From Thiohalobacter thiocyanaticus (GTDB taxonomy: Bacteria; Pseudomonadota; Gammaproteobacteria; Thiohalobacterales; Thiohalobacteraceae): a stretch of 64,000 nt of DNA. The notes beneath the pieces are model-generated. The model worked only from the letters and a program-made list of their open reading frames with translations. It searched no databases and had not been told where the DNA came from. Location: NCBI RefSeq assembly GCF_003932505.1, contig NZ_QZMU01000002.1, positions 62,001 to 126,000 of the forward strand, written 5' to 3'. This document shows, piece after piece, positions 13,239 to 16,750 of the stretch (position 1 is the first letter of the stretch; the number at the start of each line of letters is the position of its first letter). A program made the position numbers and the translations under genes.

Positions 13239-15497
13239 TCAGGCCTCTTCCTCCTCCGGAATCTCGATCTCGAGTTCGCCGTCCCTGAGATGCACATGCA
13301 CCTCGCCGCCCTTGACCAGGCGGCCGAACAGCAGCTCCTCGGCCAGCGGCTTCTTGATGTGCTCCTGCACCACCCGCGCCATCGGCCGGGCACCCATCTT
13401 GGGATCATAGCCCTTCTCGGCCAGCCACAGCCGCGCCTCGTCGTCGACGTGCAGCGACACACCCTTGTCCTGCAACTGCGCCTCCAGCTCGAAGATGAAC
13501 TTGTTGACCACCTGCGCCACCATGGTCGGGCCAGCGACTGGAACTGGATGATACCGTCCAGGCGGTTGCGGAACTCCGGCGTGAAGATGCGCTTGATCGC
13601 CTCCAATGCCGTCGCTGCTGTGATCCTGCTTGGTGAAACCGATGGAGCGCCGGTCCATGTCCTGCGCGCCGGCATTGGTGGTCATGACAATGATCACATT
13701 GCGGAAGTCCACCTTGCGGCCGTTGTTGTCGGTGAGCGTGCCGTGGTCCATCACCTGAAGCAGCAGGTTGAACACCTCCGGATGGGCCTTCTCGATCTCG
13801 TCGAGCAGGACCACCGAGTGCGGATGCTTGAGCACCTCGTCGGTGAGCAGCCCGCCCTGGTCGAAGCCGACATAGCCCGGCGGCGCGCCGATCAGACGAG
13901 AAACCGTGTGGCGCTCCATGTACTCGGACATGTCGAAACGGATCAGCTCGATACCCAGATGCAGCGCCAGCTGCCGGGTGACCTCGGTCTTGCCCACACC
14001 GGTGGGGCCGGCAAACAGGTACGAGCCCACAGGTTTGCTTTCGTCACGCAGCCCGGAGCGCGCCATCTTGATCGAGGCGGCAAGCGACTCCACCGCCTCG
14101 TCCTGGCCGAAGATGACCAGCTTGAGGTCGCGCGCCAGGTTCCTGAGCTTGTCCTTGTCGGTGGTGGACACGCTCTTGGGCGGGATCCGCGCGATCTTGG
14201 AGACGATCATCTCGATATCGTTGATGCCGATGGTCTTCTTGCGCTTCGACGGCGGCTGCATGCGCTGGTTGGCGCCGGCCTCGTCGATGATGTCGATGGC
14301 CTTGTCCGGCAGATGGCGGTCGGTGATGTACCGATCCGACAGCTCCGCGGCCGCATGCAGGGCCTTGGATGAATACTTCACCTTGTGGTGCTCCTCGAAC
14401 ACCTGCTTGAGGCCCTTGAGTATCTGTACCGTCTCGTTGACCGTCGGCTCGCGCACGTCGATCTTCTGGAAACGGCGGGCCAGGGCGCGGTCCTTCTCGA
14501 AAATGCCGCGGTATTCCTGGTAGGTGGTCGAACCGATGCACTTGAGCTCGCCGTTGGCCAGCATCGGCTTGATCAGGTTGGAGGCATCCATCACCCCGCC
14601 GGAGGCCGCGCCCGCGCCGATGATGGTATGGATCTCGTCGATGAACAGAACTGCACCCGGCTCCCTGCGCAGCTGGGCGAGCACGGCCTTGAGGCGCTTT
14701 TCGAAATCGCCGCGGTACTTGGTGCCGGCCACCAGCGCCCCCAGATCCAGCGCATAGATGACACTGTCCCTGAGCACCTCGGGCACCTGGTCGTCAACGA
14801 TCATGCGCGCCAACCCCTCGGCCAGCGCCGTCTTACCCACGCCGGCCTCGCCGACATAGAGAGGGTTGTTCTTGCGCCGCCGGCACAGGATCTGCACCGT
14901 ACGCTCGATTTCCTCCGCACGACCGATCAGCGGATCGATCTTGCCCTGACGGGCCAGATCGTTGAGGTTGGAGGCGAAGGTCTCCAGGGGGTTGCTCTTG
15001 CCGCCCGCCTCGCCGCCGGTCTCGGCCTCCTCGCCGCCCTGGGCGCCCAGTTCCTCCTGGTCGCCGACCTTGGAGATACCGTGGGAGATGTAGTTGACCA
15101 CGTCCAGCCGGGTCACATCCTGCTTGTTGAGGAAGTACACGGCCTGGGATTCCTGCTCACTGAAGATGGCGACCAGGACATTGGCACCGGTGACTTCCTT
15201 GCTGCCCGAGGACTGGACATGGAACACCGCCCGCTGCAGCACCCGCTGGAAACCCAGCGTGGGCTGGGTTTCGCGGTTGTCGTGCTCGGGCAGGCGCGGG
15301 GTGGTCTCCTCGATGAAGCCTTCCAGTTCCTGCTTGAGCTTTTCGGTGTCGGCGGCGCAGGCGCGCAGCACCTCGGCGGCGGCGGGATTGTCCAGCAAGG
15401 CGAGCAGCAGGTGCTCGACCGTCATGAATTCATGCCGTTTCTCCCGGGCCTCCTTGAAGGCCAGGTTCAGGGTGAATTCCAGTTCCTTGCTCAGCAT
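13239..15497 (-). CDS. clpA: ATP-dependent Clp protease ATPase subunit ClpA, with two compensating frameshifts
   Basis: An AAA+ unfoldase that feeds ClpP and works with ClpS on N-degron substrates. About 752 residues from the ATG at 15497, behind a GAGGTG ribosome-binding site. The N-domain is at 1-145, D1 Walker A is GEAGVGKTALAEG and D2 Walker A is GPTGVGKTEVTRQ. One extra base at about 13604-13610 and one missing base at about 13530-13531 leave about 25 codons out of frame. In the +1 frame that stretch reads the conserved ALEAIKRIFTPEFRNRLDG, including the D2 arginine-finger region. The frame is restored afterwards and the C-terminus is normal. As written the protein would be defective; sequence error is likelier than real mutation. 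Confidence 0.93.
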   Translation of the reverse strand: MLSKELEFTLNLAFKEAREKRHEFMTVEHLLLALLDNPAAAEVLRACAADTEKLKQELEGFIEETTPRLPEHDNRETQPTLGFQRVLQRAVFHVQSSGSKEVTGANVLVAIFSEQESQAVYFLNKQDVTRLDVVNYISHGISKVGDQEELGAQGGEEAETGGEAGGKSNPLETFASNLNDLARQGKIDPLIGRAEEIERTVQILCRRRKNNPLYVGEAGVGKTALAEGLARMIVDDQVPEVLRDSVIYALDLGALVAGTKYRGDFEKRLKAVLAQLRREPGAVLFIDEIHTIIGAGAASGGVMDASNLIKPMLANGELKCIGSTTYQEYRGIFEKDRALARRFQKIDVREPTVNETVQILKGLKQVFEEHHKVKYSSKALHAAAELSDRYITDRHLPDKAIDIIDEAGANQRMQPPSKRKKTIGINDIEMIVSKIARIPPKSVSTTDKDKLRNLARDLKLVIFGQDEAVESLAASIKMARSGLRDESKPVGSYLFAGPTGVGKTEVTRQLALHLGIELIRFDMSEYMERHTVSRLIGAPPGYVGFDQGGLLTDEVLKHPHSVVLLDEIEKAHPEVFNLLLQVMDHGTLTDNNGRKVDFRNVIIVMTTNAGAQDMDRRSIGFTKQDHSSDGIGGDQAHLHAGVPQPPGRYHPVPVAGPTMVAQVVNKFIFELEAQLQDKGVSLHVDDEARLWLAEKGYDPKMGARPMARVVQEHIKKPLAEELLFGRLVKGGEVHVHLRDGELEIEIPEEEEA

Positions 15498-15520: not shown

Positions 15521-15844
15521 CTACGCCTCTTCGAGAGTGCACAGGAGCGGATGTTGATGTTGCCGGGAGAAATCGTTGACCTGATGCACCTTGGTCTCGG
15601 CAATCTCATGGGTGTAGACCCCGCAGATTCCCTTCCCACGCGTATGCACGTGCAGCATGATCTGGGTGGCCTTTTCACGCGACATGGCAAAGAAGGTCTC
15701 CAGCACCTCGACCACGAACTCCATCGGCGTGTAGTCGTCGTTCAGCAGTACGACCTTGTACAGCGGCGGTTTCTTAACCTTGGGCTTGTCCTCCTGGACA
15801 GCGAGCCCGTCATCCTGGTTCGGTTGCTTCGGTTCCTGACTCAT
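15521..15844 (-). CDS. clpS: ATP-dependent Clp protease adaptor ClpS
   Basis: Recognises N-degrons and delivers them to ClpA. 107 residues from the ATG at 15844, preceded by an unrelated in-frame extension that I reject. After a variable acidic tail come [20 protein letters not shown] and the Asn-Asp-Asp binding pocket, then [16 protein letters not shown] with the conserved His. It ends 23 bp upstream of the clpA start, the standard clpS-clpA order. Confidence 0.97.
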
Positions 15845-16006: not shown

Positions 16007-16031
16007 ATACTTGACTATTTTAGTCAAGTGT
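16007..16031. promoter_or_regulatory. IscR type-1-like (Rrf2 family) operator
   Basis: A 25-bp site with perfect 9-bp arms ACTTGACTA and TAGTCAAGT around TTT, extended by AT on the left and GT on the right. From memory of the E. coli IscR type-1 consensus, 24 of 25 positions agree, the exception being the final TGT instead of TAT. It contains TTGACT (16011-16016), usable as a -35 box, with TATAAA at 16031-16036, though only 14 bases apart. It lies 142 bp upstream of cspA and 162 bp upstream of clpS, so either gene could be the target; no Rrf2 regulator gene is in the window. Confidence 0.6.
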
Positions 16032-16173
16032 ATAAAGTGGGTTGTGTCGGATCAATCGATGCGACAGGAGGAGTCTCCGGTCACCGCCCGTGGCGCGCCG
16101 GAGGTGGAGAGGTGAAACCACCAACAGCAATAAGCGGTCGTCTGAACCGCAGCGGTAAACGAGGTAGGCACGT
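16032..16173 (+). promoter_or_regulatory. Long leader upstream of the cold-shock gene
   Basis: The clpS-cspA gap (15845-16173) has no further gene. Between the Rrf2-type site and the cspA ATG lies a leader of about 130 bases, purine-rich near 16095-16115 (GGAGGTGGAGAGGTGAAACC), and a GAGGTAG ribosome-binding site at about 16161-16167. Long structured 5' leaders are usual for cold-shock mRNAs. I see no transcription start directly. Confidence 0.4.
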
Positions 16174-16383
16174 ATGGCAATCGGTACAGTGAAATGGTTC
16201 AGCAACGCCAAAGGTTATGGCTTTATTGAACCCGAAGGCGGCGGTGAGGATGTGTTCGCCCATTTCACCGTAATTGAGGCGGAAGGTTATCGAACCCTCA
16301 AGGAAGGGCAGAAGGTGGAATACGAATACAAGGAAGGCCCGAAGGGACTGCTGGCAACCCGCATCGACCCCTCGGTCAACTAG
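16174..16383 (+). CDS. CspA-family cold-shock protein
   Basis: A 69-residue single cold-shock domain binding single-stranded RNA/DNA. RNP1 is KGYGFIEP (about 13-20) and RNP2 is DVFAHFT (about 26-32). The stop codon TAG at 16381-16383 overlaps the first bases of a mobile-element terminal repeat, so the natural C-terminus may have been altered by that insertion. An IscR-type operator upstream suggests iron-sulfur, redox or NO-linked control rather than only cold control; this is inference. Confidence 0.93.
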   Translation: MAIGTVKWFSNAKGYGFIEPEGGGEDVFAHFTVIEAEGYRTLKEGQKVEYEYKEGPKGLLATRIDPSVN

Positions 16384-16701
16384 GGCCTGTTAACACTAAT
16401 CCAATCGCCTCTGCTGGGGCTGATTTTTCGTCCAGCAAGGCAGAATGAGCGAAGTGTAGTTATTCTACATGAGCGAATGATAACGCCGCTGGGCGGAACA
16501 TCAGCCCCAGCCCGACGGGTTGTGCCTGAAACAGCGCCACTCAGCGTTGCTCGTACCCACAACACTCGCTGCGCTCGCGGGGCAGGCTCTCGCTTATTTG
16601 GAATCACCAAACTGCGCTCCTCGCGCCTTTATGCCCTATGGGTATCGATTGGCGCTGTTTCTGGCACAACAGAGACGATGGGATTAGTGTTAACAGGCCC
16701 T
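16382..16701. mobile_element. MITE-like element with a nested second inverted repeat
   Basis: Both ends carry AGGGCCTGTTAACACTAATC as perfect inverted terminal repeats of about 21 bp (16382-16402 and 16681-16701). TA-containing dinucleotides flank the ends. The left half also has GCTGGGGCTGA, inverted as TCAGCCCCAGC at 16501-16511. A second inverted pair, GTTGTGCCTGAAACAGCGCC (from 16519) and GGCGCTGTTTCTGGCACAAC (16651-16670), breaks the right half and looks like a later insertion. No transposase is encoded, so it would need one in trans. The small frames in it are not genes. Confidence 0.75.
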
Positions 16702-16750
16702 AAGTGGCAGCGCCCGGCCCGGCAGGTCCGGGCCGCGCGCCCTGAATACG

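Follow-up and report, generated by a model that had tools for sequence, protein, structure and literature searches.

IscR is known as a regulator of Fe-S assembly, respiration and stress genes, and Anr as a regulator that carries an Fe-S cluster. According to excerpts of PMC6599224 and PMC3899308, the E. coli IscR type-1 consensus of the published literature, ATASYYGACTRWWWYAGTCRRSTAT, is the site bound by [2Fe-2S]-IscR. In Pseudomonas aeruginosa, the isc promoter is repressed by the cluster-bearing protein through type-1 sites that overlap it, and mutants altered in the cluster ligands fail to bind such sites (PMC6599224, in excerpt). The CspD protein of E. coli is described as inhibiting replication and, when overexpressed, as stopping growth (PMC3376134, in excerpt), and the cspD gene of Pseudomonas is part of the predicted core Anr regulon (PMC6588701, in excerpt). 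When E. coli O157:H7 is exposed to plant extracts, both isc genes and cspD change, and the excerpt of that study draws no link between them (PMC4940412). Within the open-licence literature naming IscR together with cspD, cold shock or clpS, the excerpts of the matches listed contain no report of IscR control of cspD. Neither csp nor cold shock nor clpS is named in the main text of a Caulobacter IscR regulon study.

Here we describe a site of Thiohalobacter thiocyanaticus, hereafter the host, that resembles the type-1 operators of iscR promoters and lies on the predicted promoter of a cspD gene. Positions given without a locus label are those of the window, i.e., the whole 64 kb stretch of DNA that was analysed.

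The predicted operator and cspD promoter

The predicted IscR type-1-like operator, ATACTTGACTATTTTAGTCAAGTGT, occupies positions 16007..16031 of the forward strand and is recognised by its match to the consensus, its matrix score and the symmetry of its arms. A recount against the published ATASYYGACTRWWWYAGTCRRSTAT gives 24 agreeing positions out of 25, the figure of the original prediction, and the sole miss is a G for A at position 24. A matrix derived from iscR promoters gives the site 25.97 bits, and the arms of the site mirror each other at 10 of 11 positions. Its 21-base palindrome, with at most 3 mismatches allowed, occurs once in the window (0.00 expected); in the whole 3.3 Mb genome it is found at the cspD operator and at one further place with 3 mismatches, and the reversed control pattern has no occurrence there.

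The operator was also said to lie between a cold-shock gene and clpS and to overlap a -35-like hexamer, and both statements hold. The hexamer, TTGACT (16011..16016, forward strand), is inside the first arm and is followed, after a 16-base spacer, by a -10-like hexamer, TAAAGT (16033..16038, forward strand). Downstream, at 16174..16383 on the same strand, lies the likely regulated gene, which encodes a 69-aa protein with a cold-shock domain (PF00313). Among ten models its best match is TIGR02381 (CspD), at 105.5 bits and under the cut-off of 115.4; we use the name cspD, in the sense of cspD-like, on account of this best match and of the location beside clpS-clpA. The divergent neighbour, clpS (15521..15844, reverse strand), encodes the Clp protease adapter and exceeds the cut-offs of three NCBIfam ClpS models; clpA follows downstream of it (13239..15497, reverse strand; TIGR02639 over cut-off). 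Over about 30 codons, at 13523-13613, the frame of this clpA seems to be lost and then restored, which may be an assembly error or a real break.

The scan for the cspD promoter gave a weak signal, with 2 promoter-like pairs in 581 bases where 0.5 were expected, which makes the predicted promoter plausible and no more. If transcription starts about 7 bases beyond the predicted -10 hexamer, the cspD leader would measure about 130 nt. Its folding is no better than that of shuffled sequences (z -0.15). A cspA-type RNA thermoregulator in the leader was considered and rejected: the match to RF01766 reaches 31.1 bits against a gathering score of 78, and the matched stretch includes coding region. We also rejected clpS as the target of the operator. 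Its own promoter-like site (15926-15897, reverse strand) is separate from the operator, at a distance of some 80 bp, and faces away from it, which leaves cspD as the likely target, and the orientation of the operator-borne hexamers likewise favours cspD over clpS.

A MITE-like element (16381-16702) separates cspD from an isocitrate dehydrogenase gene and begins at the cspD stop codon. It has inverted terminal repeats of 43 nt that are 86% complementary. Nearly full-length matches at 73-100% identity occur in at least 8 places of the genome, counting the present one; with 40 of 56 candidates scored, the genome matches total at least 28.

The arms of the operator follow the pattern TTGAC-7-GTCAA. 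An oxygen- or redox-responsive box of the FNR/Anr type would be another way to account for them, and the place of cspD in the predicted Anr regulon of Pseudomonas speaks for it. However, the box given in the excerpt of PMC6588701 is TTGATNNNNATCAA, and the operator departs from it both in spacing and in its inner bases. We consider such a box a very improbable identity for the site.

IscR proteins and similar sites in the host genome

If the site is an IscR operator, the host is expected to encode a cluster-bearing IscR. Five matches to Rrf2 proteins were found in the genome, four of them over cut-off. All are on contig C1 and the window is part of C2, in agreement with the earlier statement that no Rrf2 gene is nearby; none of the profile matches falls in the 64 kb window. 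Two of the proteins are IscR proteins with the Cys-Cys-Cys-His cluster motif, although they score 206.3 and 205.7 bits against TIGR02010, just under its cut-off of 207.55. One of the two genes belongs to a trmJ-cysE-iscR-iscX-ndk-rlmN cluster, in which iscX was tested with a profile and the other neighbours were named by eye. The other has no adjoining isc or suf genes among the open reading frames read there. Among solved structures, the first host IscR comes closest to IscR chains (4hf1 and others), which we take to be E. coli IscR and in which the segment ISERQGISLSYLEQLF is identical. Glu43, within this segment, presumably governs the discrimination of type-1 sites. A fourth Rrf2 protein of the host is nearest to NsrR and below the NsrR cut-off.

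Similar sites are found at the genes where an IscR would be expected to act. Upstream of the two iscR genes lie ATACTTGATTAAAATAGTAGGGTAT (iscR1, 23 of 25 positions in agreement with the type-1 consensus) and ATAGTTGACTGATTTGCTCAGGATT (iscR2, 21 of 25). A third site, AATGTTGACTATTTTGGTCAACAAT, lies between sufB and a divergent gene for an encapsulin-associated ferritin (TIGR04535, 134.8 bits, cut-off 125), on the ferritin side and some 240 bp upstream of sufB, and also holds a TTGACT that is a possible -35 element. This suf site comes from a matrix scan of its region and fails the 3-mismatch genome pattern, which matches at iscR1, iscR2, cspD and one further place. The original prediction was to be abandoned if such sites were absent from all isc/suf promoters; their presence at iscR1, iscR2 and suf supports the reading of the cspD site as an IscR-type operator.

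The host encodes sufB and sufD, and we found no match to IscU in its assembly, which is 92% complete. This suggests that the host assembles its Fe-S clusters by SUF. The SufD-like match runs across two frames (L268, L269), by an assembly error or a real break. The IscR-like palindrome of the suf region (L271, 3875-4400) is common to the suf operon and to the ferritin gene, and its position suggests that one switch may serve both iron storage and Fe-S assembly. The one further place matched by the genome pattern is an IscR-like site (L270, 1313-1841, in the host genome G000) that all three genomes of the genus share; it precedes a gene of 150 aa for which neither Pfam nor NCBIfam gave a match. 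In another genome (G010), a near-palindromic type-1-like site (L121, 1418-1442) follows a gene that resembles hypB by eye and is perhaps a site at a hydrogenase gene.

The host also has an IscR paralogue (L178, 2155-2616) that lacks the three cluster cysteines. A similar protein is encoded in genome G007 (L123, 1617-2069), where the SYLEQLF segment is also kept. The operator could be real and yet be used mainly by another Rrf2 protein such as this paralogue, which might need no cluster to bind type-1 sites; in that case cspD would not be directly controlled by Fe-S status. The host paralogue keeps the SYLEQLF segment and reaches 161.4 bits against TIGR02010; two type-1-like sites in tandem precede its own gene in both G000 and G007. 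But nothing connects it with cspD, and the failure of the cluster-less P. aeruginosa mutants to bind type-1 sites (PMC6599224, in excerpt) favours a cysteine-bearing IscR. We judge it quite unlikely that another Rrf2 protein is the main user of the site, and retain a cysteine-bearing IscR as the candidate regulator.

Conservation and arm symmetry upstream of cspD

The operator upstream of cspD is kept in all 3 genomes of the genus. In the family of the host, 9 of 11 genomes have a ClpS match; the 8 that entered our survey all have the site, with 20 to 24 of the 25 positions in agreement, and the ninth (G001), which was read separately, has it too. The survey covered 190 clpS loci: 30 from 42 genomes with a match, the best 80 matches of a named collection, and 80 loci from the top of the matches listed for a set in which 231 of 276 genomes matched. 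Three loci on short contigs (L089, L109, L111) and one with less than 150 bases upstream (L056) were excluded. This gave 56 regions upstream of a cspD divergent from clpS, 55 of them unique (L023 is identical to L221 and was counted once), and, as controls, 130 regions upstream of clpS genes without cspD.

The regions were scored with a matrix trained solely on the best sites of 30 iscR promoters. L151 was left out of this training set, as it had no start-codon match; L130 and L134 were kept with no site of at least 19/25. A score of at least 10 was reached by 22 of the 56 cspD regions (21 of the 55 unique ones), against a best control score of 9.75 on the same strand; when both strands were read, a single control of the 130 exceeded 10. 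None of the 55 regions reached 10 with the reversed matrix, and shuffled cspD regions did so 0.34 times on average and at most 2 times in 100 rounds, a comparison that ignores kinship. A matrix of 18 iscR promoters from outside the host's family, which omits the 11 own-family promoters and, by choice, L134, gave scores of at least 15 in 17 of 55 cspD regions and in 0 of 130 controls, and of at least 10 in 21 of 55 and 2 of 130, respectively.

The 21 positive regions come from families f1, f36, f44, f46, f56, f64, f74, f75 and f119 and from two contigs without a family code, one of which is a Thiogranum MAG. Two of the positives are doubtful, namely L206 (f36) and L062 (a named contig), as they score over 10 but lack TTGAC; setting them aside leaves 19 positives, spread over eight families plus the Thiogranum MAG. 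In other families, the sites are weaker and more degenerate than the host operator. The other 34 of the 55 unique regions score below 10. E. coli K-12 has no type-1 site upstream of its cspD (best score -1.5), and the single loci analysed in Pseudomonas, Halopseudomonas, Lamprocystis, Imhoffiella, Sedimenticola, Dasania and Microbulbifer all score under 10; the Chromatiaceae loci covered likewise lack the site. Hence, the site is conserved in just part of the class.

A TTGAC is found 85-240 bases before cspD in 48 of the 56 regions, often without a palindrome. This raises the question of whether the conserved core is merely that of the cspD promoter, with TTGACTAT an ancestral -35 element and the palindrome of the genus a chance extension that involves no regulator. 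As TTGACT also occurs in palindrome-less cspD promoters, the first arm by itself proves little. We therefore chose sites by their first arm only, requiring xTACTTGAC within 85-240 bases upstream of the start codon, and scored how well the second arm mirrors it. The 8 sites of the host's own family mirror at a mean of 6.38 of 11 positions, compared with 2.69 for the second arms of control TTGAC places. The corresponding means are 4.56 against 2.73 for the 9 sites outside the family, and 4.87 against 2.72 for the 15 sites outside the genus. None of 4000 control draws, in which kinship is ignored, reached the mean of any of the three sets. When each second arm was instead shuffled, the outside-family mean was reached in 3 of 4000 rounds and the own-family and outside-genus means in none.

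Such mirroring outside the genus makes a plain -35 element an insufficient explanation. The right half points the same way, with a score of at least 0 in 15 of 53 TTGAC places before cspD and in none of 74 control places (the 74 of 87 that were long enough for the comparison), as does the occurrence of the same sequence at suf and iscR. Some observations nonetheless speak for a promoter core or against the IscR reading. The 35 other TTGAC places before cspD, which lack the xTAC start, show little symmetry (3.2 against 2.68); 55 of 4000 control draws and 254 of 4000 arm shuffles did as well. At cspD, the final two positions of the second arm are not conserved (13% and 17%), and a test by column permutation that took in all 53 TTGAC places gave a modest result (50 of 2000, kinship ignored). 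Altogether, we find it unlikely that the conserved core is promoter only. We rejected a chance palindrome on account of the genome-wide rarity of the pattern, its conservation in relatives and the symmetry of its arms.

Different small palindromes were seen at the cspD -35 element of Lamprocystis (L008) and Imhoffiella (L017), with the form TTGAC-7-ATCAA, and at that of L203, with TTGACTATAGTCAG. They hint at other regulators in these loci.

Predicted regulation and comparison with known systems

We consider it probable that the site, placed over the cspD -35 element, serves the host IscR as a type-1 operator, and that cspD is repressed by holo-IscR and derepressed upon loss of the cluster. 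This reading builds on the agreement with the consensus, the promoter-like element that the site overlaps, the presence of IscR genes, the sites at iscR and suf, and the conservation and dyad symmetry in relatives. What weighs on it is that both IscR scores lie just below the TIGR02010 cut-off and that 34 of 55 cspD regions, and E. coli, are without the site. The direction of control is the most likely one by analogy with the repression of isc by holo-IscR in P. aeruginosa. We infer from these elements that [2Fe-2S]-IscR, probably one of the cysteine-bearing paralogues, would bind the operator and block RNA polymerase at cspD, as at iscR promoters. Under a shortage of clusters, caused by iron limitation, oxidants or possibly NO, IscR would lose its cluster and release the operator, and cspD would be derepressed together with iscR and suf. 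The host CspD would then slow replication, if it acts like its E. coli counterpart.

A broader reading is more tentative. It holds cspD to be a conserved IscR target in several gammaproteobacterial families, in which loss of Fe-S clusters would derepress a CspD-type replication brake alongside suf and pause replication until the clusters are rebuilt; we see this as possible, but lean somewhat against it. A conserved site on cspD would link Fe-S and redox status to a relative of the E. coli replication inhibitor (PMC3376134, in excerpt).

The kind of element is known, and what seems new is cspD as its target and the conservation across families. The evidence suggests that a known regulator has a new predicted target, and that only some lineages have it. 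The gene order is that of E. coli K-12, where cspD is also divergent from clpS-clpA, but the type-1 site of the host has no counterpart there. Like the type-1 operators of the iscR promoters of E. coli and P. aeruginosa (PMC6599224, PMC3899308, in excerpt), the host site is a 25-base palindrome with the same consensus that lies on a promoter. It differs from them in that its gene is cspD and not one of Fe-S assembly, and in that the cspD sites of most relatives have a degenerate second arm. The predicted Anr control in Pseudomonas is similar in placing cspD under an oxygen- or redox-sensing regulator, whereas the regulator family and the box of the host differ from Anr and its motif (PMC6588701, in excerpt). 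If the IscR reading is true, then together with the Anr prediction it would make cspD a recurrent target of Fe-S-sensing regulators, reached through different proteins and different sites.
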